From contig NZ_JQMM01000001.1 in assembly GCF_000744735.1 (NCBI RefSeq), positions 558,001 to 622,000 of the forward strand: DNA of 64,000 bases, read 5' to 3'. The DNA is from Porticoccus hydrocarbonoclasticus MCTG13d. GTDB taxonomy: Bacteria; Pseudomonadota; Gammaproteobacteria; Pseudomonadales; Porticoccaceae. A program made the translations under genes and the position numbers. Positions 2,661 through 36,029 of the stretch are shown piece by piece (positions within the stretch are counted from its first letter, which is position 1; the number at the start of each line of letters is the position of its first letter). The notes under the pieces are model-generated. The model did not search any database, had not been told where the DNA came from, and saw only the letters and a list, made by a program, of their open reading frames with translations.

Positions 2661-5600
2661 ATGACATTGACTGATCTAAGAACCCGAATTCGCCGGGCCA
2701 CTTCTACCGATGAGCACGCTTGTGTCGAGCAATTGCTGGCGGCCTTCCCCCTCAGCGAGGCGCAGCAACAGCAATCGCTTAACCAGGCCCGCCAATTGGT
2801 AGAGAGTTGCCGTGAGGCAACCGAGGGTAAATACCTGCTGGATGCCTTTTTACAGGAATTCGGCCTGTCCAATCGCGAAGGCGTTGCCCTGATGTGTCTG
2901 GCGGAGGCACTGCTGCGGGTGCCGGATGAGGCCACCGCCGACAAGTTGATCGCAGAAAAAATCCGCGACGGCAACTGGGCCAATCACCGTGGGCACTCGG
3001 ACTCCCTGTTCGTCAATGCCTCGGTGTGGGGTCTGATGCTGACCGGTGCGATACTGCCCCTAAGTGAAGAGATCACCACAGATACCAGCCGCTGGATGAA
3101 ACAACTGGTGAGCCGACTGGGTGAGCCGGTGTTAAGACGGGCCATGCTGCGGGCGATGAAGATGATGGGCAGCCACTATGTGCTGGGCCAGAGCCTGCCC
3201 GAAGCCATCGCCCGAGGCCATAACGAAGCATCGCCAAATACCCGTTTTTCCTTTGATATGCTGGGTGAAGGTGCCCGCACAGAGGCGGATGCCCGTCGTT
3301 ATTTCGAGGCCTATGCGTCCGCCATTGAAACCATCGGCAAAGCCAGCCGGGACGCGACTACACCCCGTACCTCACCCCTTACCTCGGATGGCATTTCGGT
3401 CAAGCTGTCCGCCCTGCACCCCCGCTATCAATTCAGTCAACGGGATCTGGTGATGGGCGAACTGCTGCCGCGCATCCGGGAGCTGGCCATTGCTGCCCGA
3501 AGTCACCGTATCGGCCTGAGCATTGATGCCGAAGAGGCCGCCAGACTGGAGCTATCCCTCGATATCTTTGAAGCACTGGCCCGCGACCCGGCCTTGTCTG
3601 ACTGGGATGGTCTGGGCTTTGTGCTACAGGCCTACCAGAAACGTGCCCCGGCCGTGATTCCCTGGTTGATCAAACTGGCCGGAGAAACCCGGCGCCAATT
3701 CATGGTCAGGCTGGTGAAAGGTGCCTATTGGGATACAGAGATCAAACTCGCCCAGCAACAGGGGCTCGCCGACTACCCGGTGTTTACCCGCAAGGCACAT
3801 ACGGACCTCTGTTACCTGCACTGTGCGCAACAGCTGCTCGCGGCACCGGGAGCCGTCTATCCACAATTCGCCACCCACAACGCCCAGACCATCACCACCA
3901 TTCAGCAGCTGGCCGGCGATGCCCCCTATGAATTCCAGCGCCTGCACGGTATGGGCGAGGTGCTCTATGGGCAATGGCAACGGCAGCCAGCTGAGTTGCC
4001 ACCGGTAAGGGTTTACGCGCCGGTTGGCGAACACCGCGATCTGCTGCCCTATCTGGTGAGGCGTTTACTGGAAAATGGCGCCAACAGCTCCTTTTTAAAC
4101 CACCTGCTGGATGAGCAGATGTCGGTGGACTCTCTGGTGAGACCCCTGCTACCCCAGATTCGCTCGGTGAGGCCCCATCGCCACCGACTGATTCCATTAC
4201 CGGTGAATATCTACCGCGCCGCCGGTGAAGAGCGTGCCGGGGCGGCCGGTTTGGACCTGAACAATCCACTGATCAGTGAACCACTGGTTGCCGCACTCAA
4301 CGAGACACCCATCCCTGTCCGGGCCGGGCCTGTGGTGGGCGGGGAATGGGTACAGCGGGACCCACAGCCAGTCCTGTCCCCCGCCGATGGCATAATGGTG
4401 GTGGGCCACTGCACGATGGCCAACGATGAAGATGTGACCAAAGCCCTGCAACAGGCAGCCACGGCACAGTGGGCCTGGAGCCAGCGTGGCGGTGCCGCAC
4501 GCGCTGACATACTGGAACGAATGGCCGAGCTGCTGACAGAACATCAGCTGGCGCTGTTGAAGCTGATTGTGCAGGAGGCGGGACGCACGATTGCCGATGC
4601 GTTGGCGGAGGTGCGGGAAGCAATCGACTTCTGCCACTATTACGCCCTGCAGGCCCGCTACCGGTTTTCCGGGGGTATCGATCTGCCCGGCCCCACCGGA
4701 GAGAGCAACCAGCTCTGTCTCGAAGGCCGCGGCGTGTTTCTCTGCATCAGTCCATGGAATTTCCCGCTGGCCATTTTTACCGGGCAGACCGCAGCGGCAT
4801 TGGTGGCAGGCAATGCGGTGATCGCCAAACCCGCCCTGCAGACACCGCTGGTGGCAGCCAAAGCCACAGAGCTGTTCCATCGGGCCGGTGTGCCAGTCGA
4901 TGTGTTACACCTCCTGCCCGGCGAGGGCGCGAAACTGGGCGAACGGTTGCTGCCGGACCCACGGATTGCCGGCGTTGCCTTTACCGGGTCCAGCGCTACG
5001 GCCAAAATCATCCAGCGACAGCTGGCCCGTCGCCCCGGTGCCATTGTGCCGCTTATCGCGGAGACCGGTGGCCAGAATGTCATGCTGGTGGATTCCACCG
5101 CCCTGCCGGAACAGGTGGTGGATGATGTGATTTCTTCGGCCTTCCTCAGTGCCGGGCAACGTTGCTCGGCACTGCGAGTGCTGTTTATTCAGGACGATAT
5201 TGCCGATGACCTGCTGACGACACTTACCGGCGCACTGCAAACCCTGAAGGTCGGCAATCCTGCCAGCCTGGCTACCGATATAGGCCCGGTGATTGACGGG
5301 CGCGCCAGGGATACCCTGATGGCCCATATCGAGCGGATAAGTCGGGAAAGCACATTACTGGGGAGTCTGAAAACGGAGCAGATACCCTCGCGAGGGTATT
5401 TTGTGGCACCACATCTGGTTGAGATCGACTCACTGGCGCAACTGCCCGAGGAGGTGTTCGGGCCTATCCTCCATGTGATCCGCTATCGCGCCGCAGATAT
5501 TGACCGGGTACTGGCGCAAATCAACGACAGTGGTTTTGGCCTGACACTGGGGATTCAAAGCCGCCTGAAACGGTTTGCCGACTATGTGTTCAGCCATACC

Positions 5601-21664: not shown

Positions 21665-24103
<2,439 letters not shown>

Positions 24104-24126: not shown

Positions 24127-25230
24127 TTACTCAGTGCAATGCTCTTCCCGAACAGAACCCTGTTCCACGTGGAACAACCTAAGTTCGCTTGTTGTCTCAG
24201 ACCAAAGATCCAACAGGTCCCTCCGCTCTACCCCCGTGACGAATATCTGAGCACCGAGGGCACTTAGCTTTTCACAAACCTGCTGTCTGTGTTTTATATC
24301 CAGTTCTGCCGGTAGATCATCTATCAAGTAAAGGCCGGACCGACCGGTTTTATTATAAAAAAGATAACCTTGTGCAACTTGCATAGCCGTTGCCAACACT
24401 TTTAGCTGCCCGCGGGATAGAATATCACTGACGTTCTGTTTCTTTATCCTGATCCGCAAATCCGCACGGTGGGGGCCATGATGGGTGGTTTTTAGCAGAC
24501 GATCTCTCGGGCGATCTTTGTGTAGCACCTCGGGCAGACCCACCGCTTCATCCCAGCCAGGGTTAATAATGAAGTCCACATCACCTAAACCCTCAGATAG
24601 CTCACAAGCCACCTGTTTGACTATGGGTAACAAATCATTGAGATAGGCATTTCTCGAGGTATTTATCTGTTGCGCGAGATCGACAAATTCAGTATCCCAT
24701 ACAGCCAACAACTGTTCGTCTATTCTATCATGTCGCATTAGCGAATTGCGTTGTTTCAGTACACGCTGATAGCGTCGTACCAACTGTTTGTAGTTGTGTT
24801 CCACGTGGAACACACCCCAATCGATAAATCGACGTCGATACTGTGGCCCACCCCCAATCAGGTCAAAGCCCTCGGCATTTAAAAGCAACAATGGCAAAGT
24901 TTCAGCAAGAGCCGATGCGGCCGCAATTGGTTGTCCATTTATTTTGAATAAGAAATCGCCCTGGCGGCCGCGAGAAACACCTATCGGGGTTGAAACACCG
25001 GAAGATTCGCGCAAACCATACGCGGTACAGACCTGCTCTTGGGTATTTATGACGGTGTTGAGTACACGACTTCGGAAGGAACGACCACGACCCAACAAAA
25101 AAATCGCCTCCAGGATGCTGGTCTTGCCGCTACCGTTGGGGCCGTGGAAAAGGTTCACCTGCGGAGAAAGAGACAGCTGGATGTGCTTCAAATTTCTCAA
25201 TCCGTGCACATGCAACTGTTTAAGATACAT
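24127..25230 (-). CDS. recF: DNA replication and repair protein RecF
   Basis: SMC-like ATPase that loads RecA at gaps and replication-fork damage. The 367 residues carry Walker A (HGPNGSGKTS, Lys36), a signature-type motif (LSRGQLKVLATAMQ near 275) and Walker B/D-loop (LYLIDDLPAELD near 305). It lies between dnaN (37 nt) and gyrB. The coding sequence contains two perfect parS sites, both reading Phe-His-Val-Glu in the protein: one near residue 140 (GVFHVEHN) and one near the C-terminus (RLFHVEQG). ATG 25230 fits the family start MYLKQLHVHGLRN. Confidence 0.97.
   Translation of the reverse strand: MYLKQLHVHGLRNLKHIQLSLSPQVNLFHGPNGSGKTSILEAIFLLGRGRSFRSRVLNTVINTQEQVCTAYGLRESSGVSTPIGVSRGRQGDFLFKINGQPIAAASALAETLPLLLLNAEGFDLIGGGPQYRRRFIDWGVFHVEHNYKQLVRRYQRVLKQRNSLMRHDRIDEQLLAVWDTEFVDLAQQINTSRNAYLNDLLPIVKQVACELSEGLGDVDFIINPGWDEAVGLPEVLHKDRPRDRLLKTTHHGPHRADLRIRIKKQNVSDILSRGQLKVLATAMQVAQGYLFYNKTGRSGLYLIDDLPAELDIKHRQQVCEKLSALGAQIFVTGVERRDLLDLWSETTSELRLFHVEQGSVREEHCTE
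24161..24176. promoter_or_regulatory. parS: parS centromere site (copy 1, in recF 3' end)
   Basis: TGTTCCACGTGGAACA, a perfect 16-bp palindrome identical to the consensus ParB nucleation site of Pseudomonas-type chromosomes. ParB is encoded at 36034 in the same window. Confidence 0.95.
24797..24812. promoter_or_regulatory. parS: parS centromere site (copy 2, in recF)
   Basis: A second perfect TGTTCCACGTGGAACA, 636 bp from the first. It should nucleate ParB spreading near the origin. Confidence 0.95.
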
Positions 25231-25267: not shown

Positions 25268-26371
25268 CTATAGGCGCATCGGCATTACCACGTAGACAGC
25301 ACCCTCAGTCGCGGGGTCTTCGATCAGCGCACTGCTGTTTGCATCGGACAGGGTGAATCGGACCTCCTCCCCACGTAAGACATTAAGCACATCAATGACA
25401 TAGCTAACATTAAAACCTATTTCCAATTCACCAGCATCATAGTTAACGGCTACGTCTTCCTGGGCCTCCTCCTGCTCCGGGTTATTCGCTGTCAACGTCA
25501 ACAAGCCATCACTGAGAAGCAAACGCACACCGCGGTACTTTTCATTGGAAAGGATCGCGGTGCGACTAAATGCCTGACGAAGCTCCTCCCTCCGACCGAT
25601 GAGTTGTTTATTGCCGCCTTTGGGCAAGACACGCTGATAGTCAGGATAGGCGCCATCAACCAATTTTGAAGTAAAACGAAATTCTGGTGTTGAAACCCGT
25701 ATGTGATTATTGCCAAGTACGACTTCAACCCCGGCATCTTCAACGAGCAGGCGGGACAGCTCCAAAACACCCTTGCGTGGGATAATGACCTGTATCGCGT
25801 CGCTGTCGAGATTCTCCAGGGGGGCGTCACGCATGGCCAACCGGTGACCATCGGTTGCAACCACCCGGACTCGGCCTTCACCGACCTCAAGCAGCATGCC
25901 ATTCAGGTAGTAACGTACATCCTGCTGAGCCATGGCAAATGCTGTGCTATCCAGCAATTGTTTGAACGTGTACTGGCTCAGGGAAAACTCCCTATTACCA
26001 GGACCATCTTCTACACTCGGAAATTCATTTGCCGGCAGTGTTGACAGGGTAAAACGGCTCCTACCACTCGTAACGGTTGCACGACCCGCATCCACCGAGA
26101 TAGTCAACTCTGCACCCTCGGGCAAGGAACGACAAATATCCATCAATTTTCGACCGGGCACCGTGATTTCACCATCTATAACCGGACTATCACCCAGATC
26201 CAGATAACCAAGAATCTCCACCTCAAGATCCGTTCCAGTTAACGATAAACGACCGTCACTCAATCCAATCAGCACATTCGATAGGATGGGTAAGGTCTGA
26301 CGCCTTTCAACAACGCCAACCACCAACTGCAGGGGCTTAAGAAAATCTTCTCGCGATACGGTGAACTTCAT
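25268..26371 (-). CDS. dnaN: DNA polymerase III beta sliding clamp
   Basis: Ring-shaped processivity clamp of the replicative polymerase. The 367 residues (E. coli 366) form the three clamp domains of about 120 residues each. The start MKFTVSREDFLKPLQLVVGV and the ending AVYVVMPMRL are diagnostic. Second gene of the dnaA operon, 94 nt downstream of dnaA and 37 nt before recF. The 94-nt gap is long enough for an internal promoter, though I see no clear one. Confidence 0.98.
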   Translation of the reverse strand: MKFTVSREDFLKPLQLVVGVVERRQTLPILSNVLIGLSDGRLSLTGTDLEVEILGYLDLGDSPVIDGEITVPGRKLMDICRSLPEGAELTISVDAGRATVTSGRSRFTLSTLPANEFPSVEDGPGNREFSLSQYTFKQLLDSTAFAMAQQDVRYYLNGMLLEVGEGRVRVVATDGHRLAMRDAPLENLDSDAIQVIIPRKGVLELSRLLVEDAGVEVVLGNNHIRVSTPEFRFTSKLVDGAYPDYQRVLPKGGNKQLIGRREELRQAFSRTAILSNEKYRGVRLLLSDGLLTLTANNPEQEEAQEDVAVNYDAGELEIGFNVSYVIDVLNVLRGEEVRFTLSDANSSALIEDPATEGAVYVVMPMRL

Positions 26372-26465: not shown

Positions 26466-27896
26466 TCAGGTGGTCAATGCCCGAAGTAGTTGCTTGAAGT
26501 CCTCACCTATATCACGACTCGTTTCCTGCAACTCCTTGACCTTGCGGCAAGCGTGGAGGACCGTTGTATGATCCCTGCCACCGAAGGCCTCCCCTATTTC
26601 CGGTAAGCTGTGATTTGTCAGTTCCTTGGCCAGGGCCATTGCCACCTGTCGTGGTCTGGCGATTGACCGGCTTCTACGTTTTGAAAGAAGCTCAGACAGT
26701 TTAACCTTGTAATATTCAGATACCACCCGCTGGATATTATCGATGGTCACCAGCTTATCCTGCAGGGCTAGGAGATCCCGAAGTGATTCACGAATAAGGT
26801 CTATATCTATTGCTCTACCGGTAAAGTGGGCACTTGCTATAACTCTTTTTAAAGCACCTTCAAGCTCTCGCACATTTGACCGGATACGCTGGGCAATAAA
26901 AAAAGCGGCGTCGGTCGGCAGCTCAACCTTTGCTTGGTGGGCCTTTTTAATAAGAATCGCTACGCGGGTTTCCAGCTCCGGTGGCTCTACCGCAACAGTC
27001 AGCCCCCACCCAAAACGGGATTTGAGGCGCTCTTCAAGACCATTGATTTCTTTTGGGTAACGGTCACAGGTCAGTATCATTTGCTGACCGCCCTCAAGGA
27101 GTGCATTGAAGGTATGAAAAAACTCCTCCTGGGATCGCTCCTTGCCTGCAAAAAATTGGATGTCATCAATCAACAAAGCATCTACGGAACGGTAGAAGCG
27201 CTTGAAATCGTTGATAGCATTTAACTGCAATGCCTTGACCATATCCGCAACAAAACGCTCAGAATGCAGATAAATAATCTTTGCATTGGGCTTCTGCAGG
27301 CGCAGTGCATTACCCACAGCATGCATCAGGTGAGTTTTACCCAACCCAACACCACCGTAGATAAAGAGGGGGTTATAAGAGCCCCCGGGGTTTTCGGCAA
27401 TCTGCTTCGAAGCAGCCAGTGCCAGCTGATTTGATTTCCCTTCTACAAACGAAGAAAAAGTAAAAACTTCATTTATATTGCTCTGATGATTCAGGCCACC
27501 CTCAATACCACTGTTTCTTGTGGCTGAATGTGTTTGTGGTCGGGGTGGAACAGTAGCTGACACCGGAGCTGAAACAGCAGTATCAACCTCTATATCAGTA
27601 GATGCCTGCGAAACAGCTACACCTCGCTCCCTTTCCAGGACCCCTGATTCTACCGTAACGGCACATCGCTCCCCACAAACCTGCTGATAAATATCGACTA
27701 TTCGATCAAGAAATTTGTCCGACACCCAGTCTTTCACAAAACGATTGGGTGCCAGCAGACAGACACTGTTTGTGGTGGTCGACCCTGTAGATTGTGAGGT
27801 ATCGAGTTTTAGTGGCCTTATCCAGGTATTGAATTGTTGTGCTGGCAACTCTTCCTGAAGATAACCTAGACACTTTTCCCATAAAATTTGAGCCAA
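26466..27896 (-). CDS. dnaA: Chromosomal replication initiator DnaA
   Basis: AAA+ ATPase that binds DnaA boxes and opens oriC. The 476 residues show domain I (1-85, [18 protein letters not shown]), a variable linker rich in Ser, Thr and Val (90-150), the AAA+ domain with Walker A Lys187 (GGVGLGKTH) and Walker B (LLIDDIQFF), and the C-terminal DNA-binding domain. That domain carries the signature [15 protein letters not shown] near residue 440. It leads the operon leftward. Its upstream region contains three DnaA boxes, consistent with autoregulation. In Pseudomonas the next gene across the origin is rpmH; here it is mnmE in the same direction. Confidence 0.98.
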
Positions 27897-28239
27897 ACCA
27901 AACCCCTTCTTAGCTTTGTAGGCGGCACGAAAATGCGGATACTTCGTGTTGTTTTTATGGACTCAGTCTAGCGATAAAAGACTCAGTTATCCACACCTAT
28001 CTGGCATTATCTTAACAGGCAAAAAACTAATTATATTTATATTTATCAGTAAGTTATCTAATGCAATAGGTTTTATGTTATGCACAGAAAAAAAGTTTGT
28101 AATGGTTATTTTTTAATCAAAAACTGTGGATAACCTGTTATCAAAATGTGTGTTTACTGGGGATTTGCTGTCAATGAGATTTTGTAGGCGGCCGGTGTAA
28201 CTGGCCTGCAGTGATTAATGACTGTCCGTCCCAAAAAAG
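27897..28239. promoter_or_regulatory. dnaA upstream region with DnaA boxes (secondary oriC-like region)
   Basis: A 343-bp AT-rich interval with three consensus DnaA boxes: TTATCCACA at 27987-27995, TTATGCACA at 28078-28086, and TTATCCACA on the minus strand at 28125-28133. GACTCAGT is repeated at 27960-27967 and 27980-27987. It surely serves as the autoregulated dnaA promoter. It could also be a remnant half of an ancestral rpmH-oriC-dnaA junction. Confidence 0.7.
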
Positions 28240-29613
28240 TCATTTTCCGATGCAAAAACTGGAAAAAATTTCGCCCAGTAGATCATCCGGAGTAAATTCA
28301 CCTGTAATTTCGGCCAGGCAATGCTGGGCCAAACGCAAATCTTCAGCAAGCAACTCGCCCGCACCAGCCTCATTGAGTTGTTTTTCGCCACTACACAGGT
28401 ATTGTTGCGTACGCTGCAAGGCATCGAGGTGGCGCCGTCTGGCGGTAAAACTCCCCGTCTCGCTACCCGAATAACCCATGCACTGCTTGAGATGATCAAC
28501 CAGGTAATTCAACCCATGGTTCTGTTTGGCTGAGAGTGACACTACCGGATGCCCCTGATTCTCTGTGATGCCCACCGGAATGTCTGACGCATCTGCTTTA
28601 TTCAGGATGAAACTGATATTTTCGGCCTGCGGAAACATTCTGAAATACTCCGGCCAGTTCTCTTGTGGATCCAGTGAATAGGGTTGGCTGCTATCCACCA
28701 CAAACAGAACCCGATCCGCCTCTTCTATTGCGTGCCAGGCGCGACGGATACCTTCCTGCTCAATCGGGTCACCAGACTCGCGCAAGCCTGCCGTGTCGAT
28801 GATATGCAGCGGCATCCCATCCAGATTGATCTCTTCACGTAATAAATCCCTGGTGGTCCCCTCTATATCAGTGACTATTGCACTGTCCCTACCCGATAGT
28901 GCATTGAGTAAACTGGACTTGCCGGCATTGGGCTTACCTGCAATAACGACAGTCATACCCTCTTTCAACAGGGCACCCTGTTTTGCTTGATCAAAAACCC
29001 CATCAAGCCGGGTAACAATTTCATGTAGATCTGCGCTGACCCGGCCATCGGCCAAAAAGTCGATTTCTTCCTCGGGAAAATCAATAGCCGCTTCCACATA
29101 AACCCGCAGAGCGGTCAATGCCTCCAGTAATTGGTGAATCCTTGTGGAAAAAGCCCCCTGTAAAGAGCGGACTGCACAACGGGCAGCCTGCACTGAGGTG
29201 GCATCTATAAGATCGGCAATGGCTTCGGCCTGGGTCAGATCTAGTTTGTCGTTGAGAAAAGCACGTTGTGAGAACTCGCCGGGCAAGGCTAGCCTGGCAC
29301 CCAGCTCAACGGCCCGCTGTAGCAGCATATCCATGATAACCGGACCACCATGCCCCTGCAGTTCGAGCACGTGCTCCCCGGTAAAGGAATGGGGTGCAGG
29401 AAAATAGATCGCCAGACCGCGATCAATAACCTGATGATTGCCGTCGTAAAAGTCTGTAAAAACAGCTTTGCGGGGTTCCAGACTCTTCCCAATTAACGCG
29501 TCGACAAAGGGACCCAGTGCGGCCCCCGAAATACGTATCACGCCGACCCCACCGCGGCCCGGTGGAGTCGCCACTGCGACAATAACATCCTGATCGTGAC
29601 AGGGGCTGTTCAT
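28240..29613 (-). CDS. mnmE: tRNA modification GTPase MnmE
   Basis: With MnmG it installs the carboxymethylaminomethyl group on U34 of tRNAs reading split codon boxes. The 457 residues hold the N-terminal THF-binding domain ([20 protein letters not shown]), helical domain and the inserted Ras-like G domain. The G domain shows G1 [10 protein letters not shown]2 GTTRD, G3 DTAG and G4 NKAD. The C-terminal catalytic CIGK (formylation-site Cys) ends the protein. It follows yidC on the same strand, with a terminator hairpin in between. Here it is separated from mnmG by the whole rpmH-yidC block, whereas Pseudomonas has mnmE next to mnmG. Confidence 0.97.
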
Positions 29614-29651: not shown

Positions 29652-31358
29652 TTATTTCTTTTTCGCCGAAGTCGCTTCTATCTGACGGGTGATCATCCAC
29701 TGTTGAAGGATCGAAAGAAGATTGTTTACTGTCCAGTAAAGCACCAACCCGGCCGGAAAAAACATAAAGAAAAAGGTAAAGGCAATTGGCATCATTTGCA
29801 TGATTTTTGCCTGAGTAGGGTCTGGAGGCGTGGGATTCAATTTCTGTTGAATAAACATGCTGGCGCCCATGAGCAACGGCAGGATAAATAGCGGATCCTT
29901 GACCGATAAATCCTGAATCCAGAGTATCCAGGGTGCATGTCGCAACTCCACACTCTCAAACAACACCCAATAAAGCGCAATGAAAACCGGCATCTGCACC
30001 AAGATTGGCAGGCACCCACCCATGGGATTGACCTTTTCGCGTTTGTACAGGTTCATTGTCTCCTGGGAGAGTTTCTGCCGATCATCCCCGTAGAGATCCT
30101 TGAGGCGCATCATTTCTGGCTGTAAACGACGCATGTTCGCCATGGAACGATAGCTGGTAGCAGAGAGTTTATAGAATGCCGCCTTGATGAAAATGGTCAA
30201 AAGAATAATCGACCAACCCCAATTTCCTATCAATTCGTGCAACTGGTAAAGCACCCAGAACAGCGGTTTGGAAACCCACCAGAGCCAACCGTAGTCCACG
30301 GTCAAATCAAGGTAAGGGGAAATCTTTTCCAGCCTGTATTGATCCTTGGGACCAGCATAAAATTCGGCCCTGAACTCCCCGGTAGTGCCTGGTTCAACTG
30401 ATTTCTGAGGCGAAGTAAAACCGATGGCATAAAGATCCTGATTGCCAAGCTGACGCAGTGAAAAGGTGTTGGTTGTTGATTGATCCGGGATCCAGGCACT
30501 GATGAAGTAGTGTTGAATCATTGCAACCCAGCCACCTGTCAGGCTGTCCTTGAAAGGTTTTTCAGCAAGATCACCGAAATCGAGCTTTTTGTAGTTTTCT
30601 TCCGTGGTCCGCAGCGCTGCACCTACATAGGGGTTCATCCCCATTCCAGTAGCCACTTGGGGCTCATGGCTGTCGCGTTTGATCTGACCAAACAAGCCCG
30701 CCTTCCAGTTATCAGTACCCCGATTGTCGACCAAATAGCTCACCTGAATCAGATGATCGCCCCGGCTAAAGGTGAACCGTTTGGTAATGATGACGTCATT
30801 TTGCTGAAAAACCATGTCAACCTGGAGCTGGTCAGAATCTCCAGCGAGTTGATAGTCATTTTTTGCAGCCTTGAAGAGCGGGCGCCCTTCCGTGTTATCT
30901 GTTCCGTCGACGCCGATCAAGCCGCTTTGTGCAATATAAGTCGTACTGGCTGTCTGATTGAGCAGTACAAAAGGCGAGGAATCCTCTTCCAGCTCCGTCA
31001 GATGTTCTGGCAACGCTACCCGTACAATATCACCACCCCGCGTGTCAATCAGCACATTGAGCACATCTGTGGATACAGATAACAAACGGTCTGTCGTCGT
31101 TTCAGATGTTGTTGATTCAACAGGTGTCGACGTTACCGGGGAGGTATCACTTTGTAGTGCGGGTATTTCGTTATCAACAGAAACCGGTGTTACGTCACTG
31201 GGTGTTTGTGCCGTTTCCGGGGCTAAAACAGTTTCTTCAGAAACAGTACTCTGATTCTCCTGCTGAGAACTCTGAAAGGTGTCCCACTCAAGAAACAACA
31301 TATAAAGCACTACCAGCATGCCAGCTATCAGTAATGAACGTTGCCAATCCATAGTCAT
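29652..31358 (-). CDS. yidC: Membrane protein insertase YidC
   Basis: Inserts and folds inner-membrane proteins, alone or with SecYEG. ATP synthase subunits encoded in this window are classic clients. The 568 residues have an N-terminal anchor (LLIAGMLVVLYMLFLEW), a Ser/Thr-rich periplasmic linker (about 30-95), the large P1 periplasmic domain, and the five-helix Oxa1 core from about residue 350. The core includes MGGCLPILVQMPVFIALYWV near residue 460, and the tail is basic. ATG 31358 directly abuts the yidD stop; a second ATG two codons on is equally possible. Length compares with 548 in E. coli. Confidence 0.97.
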   Translation of the reverse strand: MTMDWQRSLLIAGMLVVLYMLFLEWDTFQSSQQENQSTVSEETVLAPETAQTPSDVTPVSVDNEIPALQSDTSPVTSTPVESTTSETTTDRLLSVSTDVLNVLIDTRGGDIVRVALPEHLTELEEDSSPFVLLNQTASTTYIAQSGLIGVDGTDNTEGRPLFKAAKNDYQLAGDSDQLQVDMVFQQNDVIITKRFTFSRGDHLIQVSYLVDNRGTDNWKAGLFGQIKRDSHEPQVATGMGMNPYVGAALRTTEENYKKLDFGDLAEKPFKDSLTGGWVAMIQHYFISAWIPDQSTTNTFSLRQLGNQDLYAIGFTSPQKSVEPGTTGEFRAEFYAGPKDQYRLEKISPYLDLTVDYGWLWWVSKPLFWVLYQLHELIGNWGWSIILLTIFIKAAFYKLSATSYRSMANMRRLQPEMMRLKDLYGDDRQKLSQETMNLYKREKVNPMGGCLPILVQMPVFIALYWVLFESVELRHAPWILWIQDLSVKDPLFILPLLMGASMFIQQKLNPTPPDPTQAKIMQMMPIAFTFFFMFFPAGLVLYWTVNNLLSILQQWMITRQIEATSAKKK

Positions 31359-31589
31359 TTAACTCTTTTCTTTTTCAGATTGCGGTACGGGATCATAGCC
31401 ACCCGCATGAAAGGGGTGACACTTTAACAGACGCTGAAACCCAAGGTAGACCCCCTTTGAAATACCATGCACTTTGATGGCCTCTTCTGCATAGCAGGAA
31501 CAACTGGGATAAAATCGACAGTTTTTTCCCAACAGAGGGCTTATCAGGTACTGATAGCCCTTCAGCATAGCCAACAATAATGAACGCAT
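31359..31589 (-). CDS. yidD: Membrane protein insertion efficiency factor YidD
   Basis: Small membrane-associated protein that aids YidC-dependent insertion. The 76 residues contain the conserved cysteine-rich core [14 protein letters not shown] near residue 24 and the [13 protein letters not shown] stretch near residue 57, which define the family. The N-terminus is an amphipathic helix. It lies 2 nt after rnpA and ends directly before yidC, in the conserved order rpmH-rnpA-yidD-yidC. Confidence 0.95.
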
Positions 31590-31591
31590 GA

Positions 31592-31957
31592 TTACTGTTC
31601 TGCCTGAAGCTTTCGTGATAACCGACGCCAGCTGTTTTCCAGCAGGTCGGTTTGTTCCCTGGGTGTCAAACGATCCATACCCTGACGTGCCAGAAATACG
31701 ATATCAAGGGAGTCAAGGAGGCTTTGAGAGTGACGAAAGGTTTCACGAACAACTCGCTTTACACGATTGCGATCTACTGATCGACGAATGTTTTTTTTTG
31801 CTACCACGAGACCGAGACGTGGCTGGCAAAGCCCGTTGGGCTTGGCCAGCAATAAAAGGTTGGGATGTGCTACTTTGTAACAGGTATCAGAAAAAACAGC
31901 CTGGTAAGCCCGGGCTGTTAATAGACGCTTGTTTCTGCCAAAAGAACTCTCGGGCAC
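31592..31957 (-). CDS. rnpA: Ribonuclease P protein component
   Basis: Protein subunit of RNase P, which matures tRNA 5' ends with the catalytic RNA. With a GTG start at 31957 the protein has 121 residues (E. coli 119). AGGG lies 8 nt upstream and the protein begins [19 protein letters not shown], which aligns with the family. The RNR signature [19 protein letters not shown] near residue 55 is intact. The frame remains open well upstream through rpmH, but that is an overlapping reading of the ribosomal protein gene. It lies 26 nt after rpmH. Confidence 0.95.
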
Positions 31958-31983
31958 AGGACTGCCCTGGTCGAGGGTAACAA

Positions 31984-32118
31984 TCAGGCGGCCAGACGCT
32001 TCCGGCCCTTGGCCCGGCGACGGTTTATTAGCTGGCGACCATTTTTTGTTGCCATGCGTGCACGAAATCCGTGGGTACGCTTGCGCTTTAATACACTGGG
32101 CTGGAATGTTCTTTTCAT
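31984..32118 (-). CDS. rpmH: 50S ribosomal protein L34
   Basis: A 44-residue, very basic ribosomal protein, complete from [19 protein letters not shown] to KGRKRLAA. All hallmark residues are present and the length is usual (E. coli 46). ATG 32118 has AAGGAAG 7 nt upstream. It heads the rpmH-rnpA-yidD-yidC run and has a clear promoter at 32163-32191. Here it faces mnmG across oriC instead of dnaA. Confidence 0.98.
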
Positions 32119-32162
32119 GGCGTACTTCCTTAAGCTGGCCTGTTACCTTCAAAGGGCGGGGG

Positions 32163-32191
32163 ATTTTAAAGAATATCCGGTGCCAGATCAA
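32163..32191 (-). promoter_or_regulatory. Promoter of rpmH operon
   Basis: On the minus strand TTGATC (32186-32191), a 17-bp spacer and TAAAAT (32163-32168) make a good sigma-70 promoter. The start point would be about 38 nt before the rpmH ATG. Confidence 0.75.
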
Positions 32192-32232
32192 TCAAAGATC
32201 TTTACCCGCAAGCAAATAACCCAGAAGTAAAC

Positions 32233-32561
32233 TTACCCACAGGCTGACCAGTGGTTCAAACCCGGTTATCCACATCTGTGTTAAAACTGTGGGTAACTCA
32301 CGGGAAAATTAGGTGGATTACCTATGAACGGAATTGTGGATAACTCATTATAAATAACGCCTGTGCACAACTGGCATCTTCACCCACAGGTTACACAAAG
32401 CAAAGGGGTCCTCTAAAAGCAACTTACTAAGTGTTTTTAATAGACTGTAAGTTATTGATAATAAAATAATATTCGAATATAACCACAGATTAACCATTGT
32501 ATATATATAACTACTATTTATTAATATCTATATAAAGAATATATATTTGATCTATTTTTAT
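32233..32561. other. oriC: Putative chromosomal replication origin oriC
   Basis: DnaA boxes: TTACCCACA 32233-32241 (one mismatch), TTATCCACA 32266-32274 (perfect), TTACCCACA on the minus strand 32288-32296, and TTATCCACA on the minus strand 32335-32343 (perfect). From about 32440 the sequence becomes extremely AT-rich up to 32561. It ends in GATCTATTTTTAT (32549-32561), which fits the E. coli 13-mer opening consensus GATCTNTTNTTTT with one mismatch. The order mnmG, AT-rich element, DnaA boxes is that of E. coli oriC. Flanking genes diverge from here, so both replichores begin co-directionally with transcription. Confidence 0.82.
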
Positions 32562-32635
32562 AATTGCCTGATGTTCGACTGAACACAGACCCTGAAGCGG
32601 GGGAAACTGTGTGGAGTATGGAAACAACGAAACGG

Positions 32636-32663
32636 TTAATTTATAGGCAATTTACTTTATACT
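32636..32663 (+). promoter_or_regulatory. Candidate promoter of mnmG
   Basis: TTAATT (32636-32641), a 16-bp spacer and TATACT (32658-32663) lie about 40 bp before the mnmG start, beside the AT-rich edge of oriC. Transcription from here would help origin opening, as known for gidA (mnmG) in E. coli. Confidence 0.45.
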
Positions 32664-32704
32664 CCCCGCCCTTGCTTAAAAAACCAGAGAATAGTCTTTT
32701 GCCC

Positions 32705-34597
32705 ATGTATTACCCGGAAAAGTTCGATGTCATTGTTATTGGTGGCGGCCATGCTGGTACCGAAGCCAGCCTGGCTGCGGCTCGAATGGGCTGTAAGACT
32801 CTTTTGCTCACACATAACATTGAAACATTAGGACAGATGTCCTGTAACCCGGCGATTGGGGGGATCGGCAAAAGTCACCTGGTAAAGGAGGTAGATGCCC
32901 TGGGTGGTGTCATGGCCCGTGCAACGGATCTCAGCGGTATTCAGTTCCGAACGCTCAATGCCCGAAAAGGTCCCGCTGTCAGGGCAACCAGAGCCCAGGC
33001 AGACCGTATTTTATACAAGGCAGCTGTCCGACAGGTTCTGGAGAACCAGCCCAATTTGTGGATTTTCCAGCAGGCAGCTGAAGATCTGACTATGTCCGGC
33101 ACCCGGGTGAGTGGTGTGGTGACGCAGATGGGGTTGCGTTTTGAGGCGAAAACCCTTGTTTTGACAGCGGGCACTTTCCTTGCCGGGAAAATTCATATCG
33201 GGCTGGAAAACTATGCCGGAGGGCGGGCTGGGGATCCTCCTGCAATGGGGTTGGCGGCAAAGCTCCGGGAATTACCCCTGCGGGTCGACCGGTTAAAGAC
33301 CGGCACGCCGCCAAGAATCGATGCGCGAAGCGTCAATCTTGAGGGGCTGCAGGTCCAGTGGGGCGATACGCCGGAGCCTGTCATGTCATTTCTCGGGGAT
33401 ACCTCCCAGCACCCGCAGCAAACCTGTTGTTACATTACCTACACCAACGAGCGCACCCATGAAATTATTCGTGGTGGAATGGATCGCTCACCGATGTATA
33501 CCGGTTTAATTGAGGGTGTTGGCCCCCGGTACTGCCCTTCCATCGAAGACAAGGTAGTCCGTTTTGCCGACAAGCAAAGTCATCAGATATTCATCGAACC
33601 AGAGGGGCTGACAACCCATGAGCTCTACCCCAATGGTATTTCAACCAGTCTGCCTTTTGATGTCCAGATGGAGCTGGTTCGCTCAATAGCCGGCTTTGAA
33701 AACGCGCATATAACCCGACCTGGTTATGCCATTGAGTACGACTATTTCAATCCGCAGGATTTGCAGTACTCACTGGAGAGCAAACATATTGACGGGTTAT
33801 TCTTTGCTGGACAGATTAACGGTACGACGGGTTATGAAGAAGCTGCCGCTCAGGGCTTACTGGCTGGTTTGAATGCCGGCCTACAGAGTCGCGAAATGGC
33901 GCCATGGTGTCCCCGACGCGATGAAGCCTACATTGGCGTGTTGGTCGATGACCTGATCACCATGGGGACGCACGAACCCTACCGGATGTTTACCAGTCGC
34001 GCTGAATACCGACTGTTGTTGCGGCAGGACAATGCGGACATGCGGCTCACCGAAAAAGGGCGGGAGTTGGGATTGGTTGATGATCAGCGCTGGCAGCGCT
34101 TCTGTGAAAAAAGTGAAGCGGTAGCACAGGAGCAGCAGCGATTGAAGAGTTGCTGGATCCAGCCAGGCAGCCCCCAGGCAGCAATGATTGCAAAAAAAAC
34201 CGGCTCTGTGCCAATGCATGAATACAGTCTTTTCGAGCTATTGAAACGGCCGGAACTGCATTACGACGATATTCAATCACTGGAGAAAGCGCCATTGCAC
34301 ATTGCCGGGGAGGTGGCGGAACAGGTAGAAATAGATGCCAAGTATGCCGGTTATATCGCACGCCAGCAGGAAGAAATTGCTCGCATGCAGCGCCAGGAAA
34401 ATACCCCGATACCTGCCGATTTTGACTTCAGTGCAGTCAAGGGGTTGTCCAATGAGGTGAAACAGAAACTGATGGTGGCGCGCCCGGATACCCTGTCGAG
34501 GGCTTCGCGCATACCGGGTGTTACACCAGCGGCAATATCCCTGCTACTGATCTATCTCAAGCGAAAATCCATGGTTGAAAAGAAGATCGCTTCCTAG
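32705..34597 (+). CDS. mnmG: tRNA uridine-5-carboxymethylaminomethyl modification enzyme MnmG
   Basis: FAD protein that works with MnmE on U34 of tRNA. With ATG 32705 the protein is 630 residues (E. coli 629) and starts [18 protein letters not shown], with the dinucleotide-binding glycines at once. The family signatures [20 protein letters not shown] and [20 protein letters not shown] near residue 370 are intact. An open frame extends 47 codons upstream but contains only promoter and oriC-edge sequence. Ribosome site is weak. rsmG begins at the next base after the stop. Confidence 0.97.
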
Positions 34598-35224
34598 ATG
34601 CCGGGTCGGGAACAAATACTTCGGGATGGGCTGGAAACTCTGGGTTTACCCCTGGCGGATGAGCAGATCCATACACTTTTTGCATACCTGGCGTTATTAC
34701 AACAATGGAATCACGCTTATAATTTGACCGCGATCCGCGACCCCGTAATGATGGTTACCCATCATTTACTGGATAGCCTCAGTATAGCGACGCGAGTAAA
34801 GGGAATGCGTATCATTGATGTGGGGACAGGTCCGGGTTTGCCCGGTATACCGCTCGCAATTTGCTTCCCGGAACGCCAGTTCACTCTGCTCGATAGCAAT
34901 GGCAAGAAAACCCGCTTTCTCTTTCAGGTAAAAACCACGCTCGGTTTGGGCAATGTGCAGCAACTGCAGTCTCGAGCAGAAGCCTATCGCCCGGAACAAC
35001 CCTTCGATGCCGTCATCAGTCGTGCATTTACCAGTCTGGCAGTTATGACCGAGACTTGTGAGCACCTGTTATCAAAGCATGGGCGTTTCTATGCCATGAA
35101 AGGGCAATTTCCAGAGCAGGAGTTGAGCGAGCTTCCAAAACACTATAATGTCGTCGACACACACCGGCTTGTTGTTCCCGGTATTGAAGGTCATCGGCAC
35201 CTGATAGAAATTGCGCCCGCCTGA
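34598..35224 (+). CDS. rsmG: 16S rRNA (guanine-527-N7)-methyltransferase
   Basis: Methylates G527 of 16S rRNA using S-adenosylmethionine; loss gives low-level streptomycin resistance in several species. The 208 residues match E. coli RsmG (207). The AdoMet site IIDVGTGPGLPGIPLAI near residue 70 and the upstream HHLLDSLS are typical. ATG 34598 follows the mnmG stop with no gap, indicating coupled translation. parA starts 10 nt after its stop. Confidence 0.96.
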   Translation: MPGREQILRDGLETLGLPLADEQIHTLFAYLALLQQWNHAYNLTAIRDPVMMVTHHLLDSLSIATRVKGMRIIDVGTGPGLPGIPLAICFPERQFTLLDSNGKKTRFLFQVKTTLGLGNVQQLQSRAEAYRPEQPFDAVISRAFTSLAVMTETCEHLLSKHGRFYAMKGQFPEQELSELPKHYNVVDTHRLVVPGIEGHRHLIEIAPA

Positions 35225-35234
35225 GGACATTGCT

Positions 35235-36029
35235 TTGAGTCAAACATTTGCCATTGCCAACCAGAAGGGTGGCGTGGGGAAAACCACCACCAGTGTAAAT
35301 CTGGCGGCCTCATTGGCCAGCTACAACAAGCGTATCCTGCTGGTGGATATGGATCCCCAGGGTAATGCCACCATGGGCTGCGGTATCGAAAAAAGTCAGC
35401 TGAAAATAACCATCCTTGATGTGCTGACCGGCGACATCAAAACAGAAGATGCACTGCAGCGCTGTGAGACAGGCAACTTTGATCTGTTACCAGCCAATGG
35501 TGATCTCACAGCAGCCGAAGTGGAATTGCTTCGAGTGAACAATAAAGAGAGCCGGTTGCGGCATGCACTGGCCAGAGTGAAAAGCAGTTACGATTACATC
35601 GTCATCGATTGTCCCCCATCACTCAGTATGTTGACAGTTAACTCGCTGGTGGCCTGTGATGGTGTCATCATACCCATGCAGTGTGAATACTATGCCCTGG
35701 AGGGATTATCGGCGTTGATGACGACGATCGGGAGGATAGGGAAATTCCTCAATCCAAAACTGCAGGTTGAGGGTATCCTGCGGACCATGTACGACCCCAG
35801 AAATAGTTTGACCAACGAGGTTACCGCGCAGTTGCGAAGGCACTTTGGCGACAAAATCTACCGTATCGCCATCCCGCGCAATGTCCGACTGGCTGAAGCA
35901 CCCAGCTACGGCCAGCCGGCTCTCAGTTATGACAAACATTCCAAAGGTGCACTTGCTTACCTAGGACTGGCAGGGGAAATCATTCGCAGAGGCAAATCGG
36001 CGAGAGTACAGATTGACAGAGCAGGTTAA
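35235..36029 (+). CDS. parA: Chromosome partitioning ATPase ParA (Soj)
   Basis: Walker-type ATPase whose nucleoid-bound gradient moves ParB-parS complexes apart. The 264 residues carry the deviant Walker A KGGVGKTTTSVNLAASLA near residue 10, Walker A' LLVDMDPQGNAT, and Walker B DYIVIDCPPSLSMLT. The start is TTG at 35235 with GAGG 8 nt upstream, giving MSQTFAIANQKGG as in Pseudomonas. An upstream TTG eight codons earlier overlaps rsmG and lacks a ribosome site. It lies 10 nt after rsmG and 4 nt before parB. Confidence 0.96.
   Translation: MSQTFAIANQKGGVGKTTTSVNLAASLASYNKRILLVDMDPQGNATMGCGIEKSQLKITILDVLTGDIKTEDALQRCETGNFDLLPANGDLTAAEVELLRVNNKESRLRHALARVKSSYDYIVIDCPPSLSMLTVNSLVACDGVIIPMQCEYYALEGLSALMTTIGRIGKFLNPKLQVEGILRTMYDPRNSLTNEVTAQLRRHFGDKIYRIAIPRNVRLAEAPSYGQPALSYDKHSKGALAYLGLAGEIIRRGKSARVQIDRAG

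Follow-up and report, generated by a model that had tools for sequence, protein, structure and literature searches.

The locus and its gene order

The window, by which is meant the whole 64 kb stretch of DNA analysed here, corresponds to positions 558001-622000 of the single-contig genome (2,474,654 bp) of Porticoccus hydrocarbonoclasticus MCTG13d. On its minus strand, read left to right, lie gyrB-recF-dnaN-dnaA-mnmE-yidC-yidD-rnpA-rpmH and on its plus strand mnmG-rsmG-parA, the order and strands given in a preliminary description of this DNA and found again for the genes checked here, gyrB to parA. Matches above the NCBIfam cut-offs identified dnaA (26466..27896, TIGR00362) with dnaN to its left (25268-26371, TIGR00663), recF (24127-25230, TIGR00611), gyrB (21665-24103, TIGR01059), mnmE (28240..29613, NF003661 and TIGR00450), yidC (29652..31358, NF002352) and rnpA (31592..31984, TIGR00188 on the ORF 31592-32191) on the minus strand, together with mnmG (32705..34597, TIGR00136) and rsmG (34598-35224, TIGR00138) on the plus strand. 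Two short minus-strand ORFs are conserved in tblastn searches, one of 76 aa at 31359..31589, which from its sequence and position we take to be yidD, and one of 44 aa at 31984..32118, presumably rpmH from its sequence. The ORF at 35211-36029 on the plus strand encodes a ParA-type ATPase that scored below the cut-off of the ParA models and is assumed from its position to be parA. The Rfam scan of the 64 kb window gave no match. Among the matches listed, the closest named relative by MnmE was Porticoccus sp. SAT26 (95% identity), and the family of marine bacteria that shares the arrangement described below would, judging from two named members, be the Porticoccaceae. The genes rpmH-rnpA-yidD-yidC-mnmE form a block that is inverted relative to other gammaproteobacteria, with rpmH at its start beside mnmG and mnmE at its end beside dnaA.

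Sequence elements in the rpmH-mnmG gap

The gap between rpmH and mnmG (32119-32704) contains on its rpmH side a cluster of four DnaA boxes (32233..32343) with at most one mismatch to TTATCCACA, two of them perfect, at 32266-32274 on the plus and 32335-32343 on the minus strand, and two with one mismatch, at 32233-32241 on the plus and 32288-32296 on the minus strand. The whole 64 kb window holds 29 such boxes, which corresponds to an expectation of about 0.05 in a stretch of 111 bp, and the four found form a cluster well above chance. On the mnmG side lies a putative AT-rich unwinding element (32466..32565), its 100 bp being 85% AT, the maximum of the window. Both elements had been noted in the preliminary description. 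Between the cluster and mnmG are a degenerate DnaA box, TTGTGCACA, with two mismatches (32362..32370, minus strand), an IHF consensus, TATCAATAACTTA (32448..32460, minus strand), and an R1-like DnaA box, ATAACCACA, also with two mismatches (32479..32487, plus strand). Read outward from mnmG, the R1-like box stands at 218, the IHF consensus 27 bp and a plus-strand box, the degenerate one, 117 bp beyond it. By itself the IHF motif occurs at chance level (three in the window against 2.27 expected) and was dropped as origin evidence; what recurs is its spacing from the R1-like box, and only this was used below.

A 13-mer-like site that had been taken as a further mark of the origin lies inside the AT-rich element (32549-32561) and reads towards mnmG. 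The 13-mer repeats of E. coli (GATCTNTTNTTTT) are not enriched in the window, with one match at up to one mismatch against 1.33 expected, and in E. coli they have the reverse orientation relative to mnmG. On both counts the 13-mer was discarded as evidence. The gap has three GATC sites compared with 11 in E. coli oriC, and Dam/SeqA sites are not clustered in it. The promoter scan returned a promoter-like site for rpmH, TTGATC-17-TAAAAT followed by a GC-rich stretch (32163..32191, minus strand), of which TTAAAAT and the GC-rich stretch are kept in the genus alignment. On the mnmG side a -10-like TATACT (32658..32663, plus strand) followed by CCCCGCCC was recognised from the sequence and the genus alignment, being absent from the output of the promoter scan. 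Promoter-like matches near the gap were not above chance (five against 6.4 expected), and terminator-like matches were weak (eight against 5.0).

Strand composition and the probable site of initiation

GC skew was sampled in 20 stretches of 20 kb and in the window. Values are negative in the samples that run from 1.97 Mb past the contig ends and up to the left half of the window, and positive in those between its right half and 1.85 Mb. Within the window the cumulative minimum falls at 31682, inside rnpA and 0.55 kb to the left of the first DnaA box, that is outside the box cluster by less than the resolution of the switch (~1 kb). The gap between rpmH and mnmG thus combines a DnaA-box cluster, an adjoining AT-rich element and a switch in strand composition, and the minimum, proposed earlier as a check on the site, does not lie in the other candidate interval, 27897-28239. 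In two further family genomes the interval in which the sampled skew switches takes in the locus: it extends from 70 to 480 kb in G042, where the locus is at 196 kb, and from 1.91 to 2.20 Mb in G043, where it is at 2.07 Mb.

A finer measure was sought in the composition of the block itself. GC skew at fourfold sites was abandoned as too weak and gene-dependent in favour of keto skew at these sites, for which stop-to-stop ORFs of this genome with 250 or more codons, rather than gene calls, served as calibration. Leading ORFs had a keto skew of +0.111 (sd 0.078, n=115) and lagging ORFs of -0.113 (sd 0.092, n=91), and the rpmH-mnmE block, at +0.084, has the composition of a leading strand. Log likelihood ratios for leading were 2.05 for mnmE and 3.40 for yidC, with rnpA (-0.53) and mnmG (-0.50) having a skew near zero. 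The composition of the block makes it most likely that the leftward fork copies it and that the origin lies on its mnmG side. In keeping with the preliminary description, oriC is thus most likely between rpmH and mnmG, and replication would be expected to start in this gap, a reading that draws on sequence data. Given oriC at this position, the genes on either side are co-directional with the forks, as had also been proposed.

A second set of DnaA boxes upstream of dnaA

The gap between dnaA and mnmE (27897..28239), attributed to the inversion, is likewise AT-rich (0.81 at 28024, a 100-bp value second in the window only to that beside mnmG) and carries three DnaA boxes, perfect at 27987-27995 (plus strand) and 28125-28133 (minus strand) and with one mismatch at 28078-28086 (plus strand), such that each of the two gaps holds two perfect boxes. 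A plus/minus pair of boxes separated by 133-139 bp and enclosing an AT-rich stretch recurs upstream of dnaA across much of the family. With two box clusters ~4 kb apart flanking the block, the dnaA-mnmE gap could be the main origin or one half of a bipartite origin, in keeping with its boxes, its AT content and the recurrence of the pair. This is considered improbable, since the block has the composition of a leading strand if the fork arrives from the direction of mnmG, and the origin-module profiles described below found no good match in the gap (best E 0.11). In addition, the plus-strand box upstream of dnaA is kept in 41/41 family loci and is also present in 25/30 from other families. Five rpmH-dnaA gaps of other families are matched by a profile of the dnaA-mnmE gap (best E 1.4e-5). 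Both results would agree with an old promoter element of dnaA.

Distribution and phylogeny of the inversion

The block is inverted in 56 of the 57 family genomes fetched, the remaining one (G046) being uninformative and none contradicting; thus every family relative that could be resolved shares the order, the comparison that had been suggested as a check. The dnaA-mnmE tandem junction was seen in 54 of the 57 genomes, the divergent rpmH-mnmG junction in 50 and both in 48. Genomes G012, G045 and G048, which gave no full MnmE match, were left out of the 57; loci L092, L117 and L118 have no rpmH-mnmG gap and fall outside the 41 and the 43 family loci used in the comparisons of gaps, and the 43 count two genomes twice (L001/L095 and L002/L115). 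Taken by itself, the window's genome would have been compatible with an assembly error or misbinning, but with the same junctions present in 56/57 family genomes, among them both named isolates and MAGs, an assembly break was ruled out and the chance of an artefact is negligible.

Outside the family the inversion was not seen in any of the sets searched. Among 35 loci of the order's other families, obtained from 36 genomes (G093 had no MnmE match), 32 have the standard order and three are uninformative. Of 78 other named loci, taken from the best 80 of a longer list in which two were family members, 71 are standard and seven uninformative. Among 133 class genomes 84 were informative, and in all 84 mnmE and dnaA are close together on opposite strands, the standard arrangement; the other 49 had the genes on different contigs (29), a single gene (10), the genes far apart (seven) or neither gene (three). 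Genome G095 is counted both among the 84 and among the 35 order loci. Five class genomes have mnmE and dnaA across contig ends, with mnmE stopping 2.5-3.5 kb before the contig end. G148 was dropped as a second inverted genome and counted as uninformative, its mnmE and dnaA lying ~25 kb apart on a contig of 1,932,455 bp. Gene order next to oriC is highly conserved in the gammaproteobacteria, mnmE/dnaA being standard in every informative class genome.

A FastTree phylogeny computed from eight proteins joined end to end (71 tips, 3736 columns) places the inverted set in one clade with support 1.0, such that a single event on the family stem suffices. Its sister branches, L174 (0.864) and then Microbulbifer, L165 and L167 (0.994), all have the standard order, and the inversion is regarded as the derived state of one family. 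The preliminary description had read the order as an intermediate between two textbook layouts, those of Pseudomonas and E. coli; its sharing across the family without contradiction and its absence elsewhere argue against an intermediate as they do against an assembly break, and the origin module, a homologue of the mnmG-side module, keeps its old place and orientation. No description of this inversion was found in the titles or abstract starts of the literature searched, among the matches listed. What appears to be new is the variant of gene order, the origin itself being of a known kind.

Homologues of the origin module and its orientation

Origin profiles were built from the mnmG-side gap of Pseudomonas (25 loci), the rpmH-side gap of Pseudomonas (25) and the window's genus (14), the last trained on 14 of the 43 family loci. 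The module was matched (E 0.05) in 33/43 family loci, 18 of them outside the window's genus, and in 33/33 the best match runs outward from mnmG with its AT-rich side to mnmG. With the Pseudomonas profiles alone the AT-rich side faced mnmG in 21/21 matches of the mnmG-side profile and in 19/20 of the rpmH-side profile (8 and 10 outside the genus), one match of the latter in a family gap running outward from rpmH. Ten of the 43 family loci gave no match to the module. At L107 (G018) the rpmH-mnmG gap has an AT content of just 40%, peaking at 0.63-0.68, and no module match, unlike most family members.

In the nearest outgroups the genus profile matches the mnmG gap only, at L174 (3e-5), L165 (7e-9), L167 (1e-11) and in 3/3 Microbulbifer loci (~1e-6), the rpmH-dnaA gap of these same loci giving no module at E 0.05. 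In the outgroup loci listed, the module is directed outward from whichever gene adjoins it. Across 34 loci of other families, matches were at mnmG only in 16, at rpmH only in seven, at both in three and at neither in eight; mnmG falls outside seven of the 34 loci, and 'rpmH only' is uncertain for L155, L168 and L183. As the mnmG and rpmH gaps carry homologous modules in family-specific combinations, the names of neighbouring genes cannot give the position of an origin.

The orientation of the module, together with the mnmG-only matches in the nearest outgroups, indicates that the origin kept its place at mnmG and that the block was reversed beside it. Conversely, an origin of the Pseudomonas type might have travelled with rpmH, such that rpmH, oriC and the block flipped together from dnaA to mnmG. 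This would keep rpmH and oriC as neighbours, a homologous module does adjoin rpmH in Pseudomonas, and the one match running outward from rpmH would be in keeping with it. An origin carried along in this way should have its AT-rich side to rpmH, but this side faces mnmG in all 33 best matches, and no module was matched between rpmH and dnaA in the nearest outgroups (E 0.05). The travelling origin was set aside on the orientation of the module and is judged very unlikely, and the stationary origin beside mnmG is the reading followed here.

On the mnmG side, an R1-IHF spacing of 27 bp occurs in the window, 17/41 family loci, 9/27 other-family loci and E. coli, and at the same stringency a spacing of 22-30 bp was absent on the mnmG side in 25 Pseudomonas, seven Vibrio, four Alteromonadales and three Microbulbifer loci. 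The minus-to-plus box spacing of 117 is the commonest in the family (10/41 loci in five genera), the next being 45, 92 and 144 with six loci each against a mean of 0.84 per 3-bp bin, and it is found in Pseudomonas in 25/25 loci upstream of mnmG and 24/25 upstream of rpmH.

Comparison with known origins

The gap resembles the mnmG-side oriC of E. coli and Vibrio in adjoining mnmG, being AT-rich on the mnmG side and having an R1-type box and distal plus-strand boxes. Outward from mnmG in E. coli K-12, R1 is at 168 with R2 at +106 and R4 at +180, whereas the window has its box at +117 instead; one of three IHF-like matches (two mismatches) in E. coli is 27 bp from R1, as in the window. The other neighbour of oriC differs, being mioC reading in towards the origin in E. 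coli and rpmH reading away in the window. Sequence profiles do not firmly tie the gap to E. coli oriC, the genus profile giving no match to it and the mnmG-side profile of Pseudomonas one that is marginal only (E 0.011).

With Pseudomonas the window shares a homologous module by profile, the minus-to-plus spacing of 117 and a block that is co-directional by skew. It differs in having a single module, at mnmG, and an inverted block, where Pseudomonas has the standard gene order and a module in both gaps; rpmH and dnaA are not adjacent in the window and the module faces mnmG. The rpmH-oriC-dnaA layout cited for Pseudomonas in the preliminary description is itself more complex, in that both gaps carry a homologous module. 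Pseudomonas loci (e.g., L018 and L039) have an AT-rich stretch, a minus box and plus boxes at +117/+179 upstream of both mnmG and rpmH, and the mnmG and rpmH profiles each match the other gap, which resembles a duplicated origin. Two putative origins of P. aeruginosa are mentioned in PMC4403523 and were reportedly described by Yee and Smith in 1990 and by Jiang et al. in 2006.

Microbulbifer, L165, L167 and L174 have the homologous module in their mnmG-mnmE gap, directed outward from mnmG as in the window. They differ in that the block is not inverted, the mnmE end faces oriC and the keto skew of the block is below that of its flanks.

Direction of transcription and replication beside the origin

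The keto skew of the block minus that of its flanks was -0.147 in Vibrio, -0.139 in Alteromonadales, -0.150 in the Marinomonas group, -0.162 in Microbulbifer and +0.010 in Pseudomonas, and +0.025 in the family genera (n=14, none < -0.08). It was below zero in 29/32 loci of other families, from which the family genera differ with P 1.3e-5. In the sister branches it was -0.143 (L165), -0.200 (L167) and, in the nearest outgroup L174, -0.064 (z -1.3). By hand sums, this difference averaged ~-0.14 in families with the module at mnmG only (16) and ~-0.06 in those with it at rpmH only (six with data). Exceptions are the Halomonas-type loci (-0.124 despite an rpmH module in 6/9), L170 (-0.143, although both gaps carry modules), L166 (+0.063, the module being at mnmG only), L177 (+0.137 with no module match) and L174, whose value is given above. 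The direction of the change in block skew is supported by these values, the measure itself being noisy, and they suggest that the block had earlier been head-on to replication.

The explanation regarded as highly probable is that the gap between rpmH and mnmG is an oriC of the mnmG-side type beside which the block flipped once, the origin itself being stationary. The gene order, the single clade, the homology and orientation of the module and the leading-strand composition of the block are shown by the sequences; that replication starts in the gap, that the block was once head-on and why the flip was kept are inferred. Such an oriC would comprise, outward from mnmG, the AT-rich unwinding element, the R1-like box, the IHF site and then the main cluster of DnaA boxes. 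Originally the block would have stood between the origin and dnaA, its genes head-on to the fork and the end of the operon facing oriC. In the family ancestor the five genes rpmH-rnpA-yidD-yidC-mnmE would have been inverted once between the origin and dnaA, such that rpmH now starts at the putative oriC and reads away from it, mnmG reads away on the opposite side, and dnaA-dnaN-recF-gyrB follows mnmE in tandem, with everything apparently co-directional with replication. The probable effect of the flip was to make co-directional a ribosomal-protein operon that had been head-on and to exchange transcription towards oriC for outward transcription.

Why the flip was retained may lie in relief from head-on conflict and in outward, perhaps ppGpp-controlled, transcription aiding the opening of oriC. 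GC-rich discriminators mark ppGpp-sensitive promoters. The -10-like TAAAAT of rpmH and TATACT of mnmG each precede a GC-rich stretch, and both stretches are found again in the genus alignment. In E. coli, according to Kraemer et al., initiation at oriC is favoured by outward and disfavoured by inward transcription (PMC6606810). Such an adaptive reason, including a link from the layout to better initiation, is a suggestion to which neutrality is a serious rival. A few genes may simply have been swapped between the arms beside oriC and fixed by drift, with no effect of transcription direction, and the odds of this are about even. The inversion is a single event and there is therefore no repetition within the family to support selection, and Kraemer et al. 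also report that replication in exponential phase was unaffected when gidA or mioC transcription was blocked (PMC6606810). Against drift, the gene strands are now all co-directional, the standard arrangement is highly conserved elsewhere (84/84 informative class genomes) and another lineage, G145, seems to have flipped rpmH-yidC separately.

It is tentatively suggested, as a possibility less probable than not, that several lineages independently solved the problem of a head-on operon beside an old mnmG-side origin, the flip being one such solution. The Porticoccaceae would have turned the operon beside a fixed origin, Pseudomonas would have kept the operon and used another copy of the origin module at its opposite end, and in the G145 lineage rpmH-yidC would have been flipped beside dnaA. 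The result in all three would be that promoters on either side of the active origin read away from it, and growth-controlled transcription would aid the opening of oriC. An old, family-wide inversion at the origin, set beside outgroups in which the operon is apparently head-on, offers a natural experiment on replication-transcription conflict and transcription-coupled initiation.

Observations in other lineages

G145 belongs to another family of the class (L216 and L217) and has rpmH-rnpA-yidD-yidC-dnaA-dnaN-recF-gyrB in one direction with mnmE ~11 kb away on the opposite strand, an arrangement resembling an independent flip of rpmH-yidC. The origin profiles gave no match there; three DnaA boxes lie just upstream of rpmH at L217 4497-4672, and the sampled local cumulative GC skew has its minimum near 4500. 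In a further genome the best match to dnaA (G160:C1:701018-702091) contains eight stop codons, and dnaA may be decaying in it.
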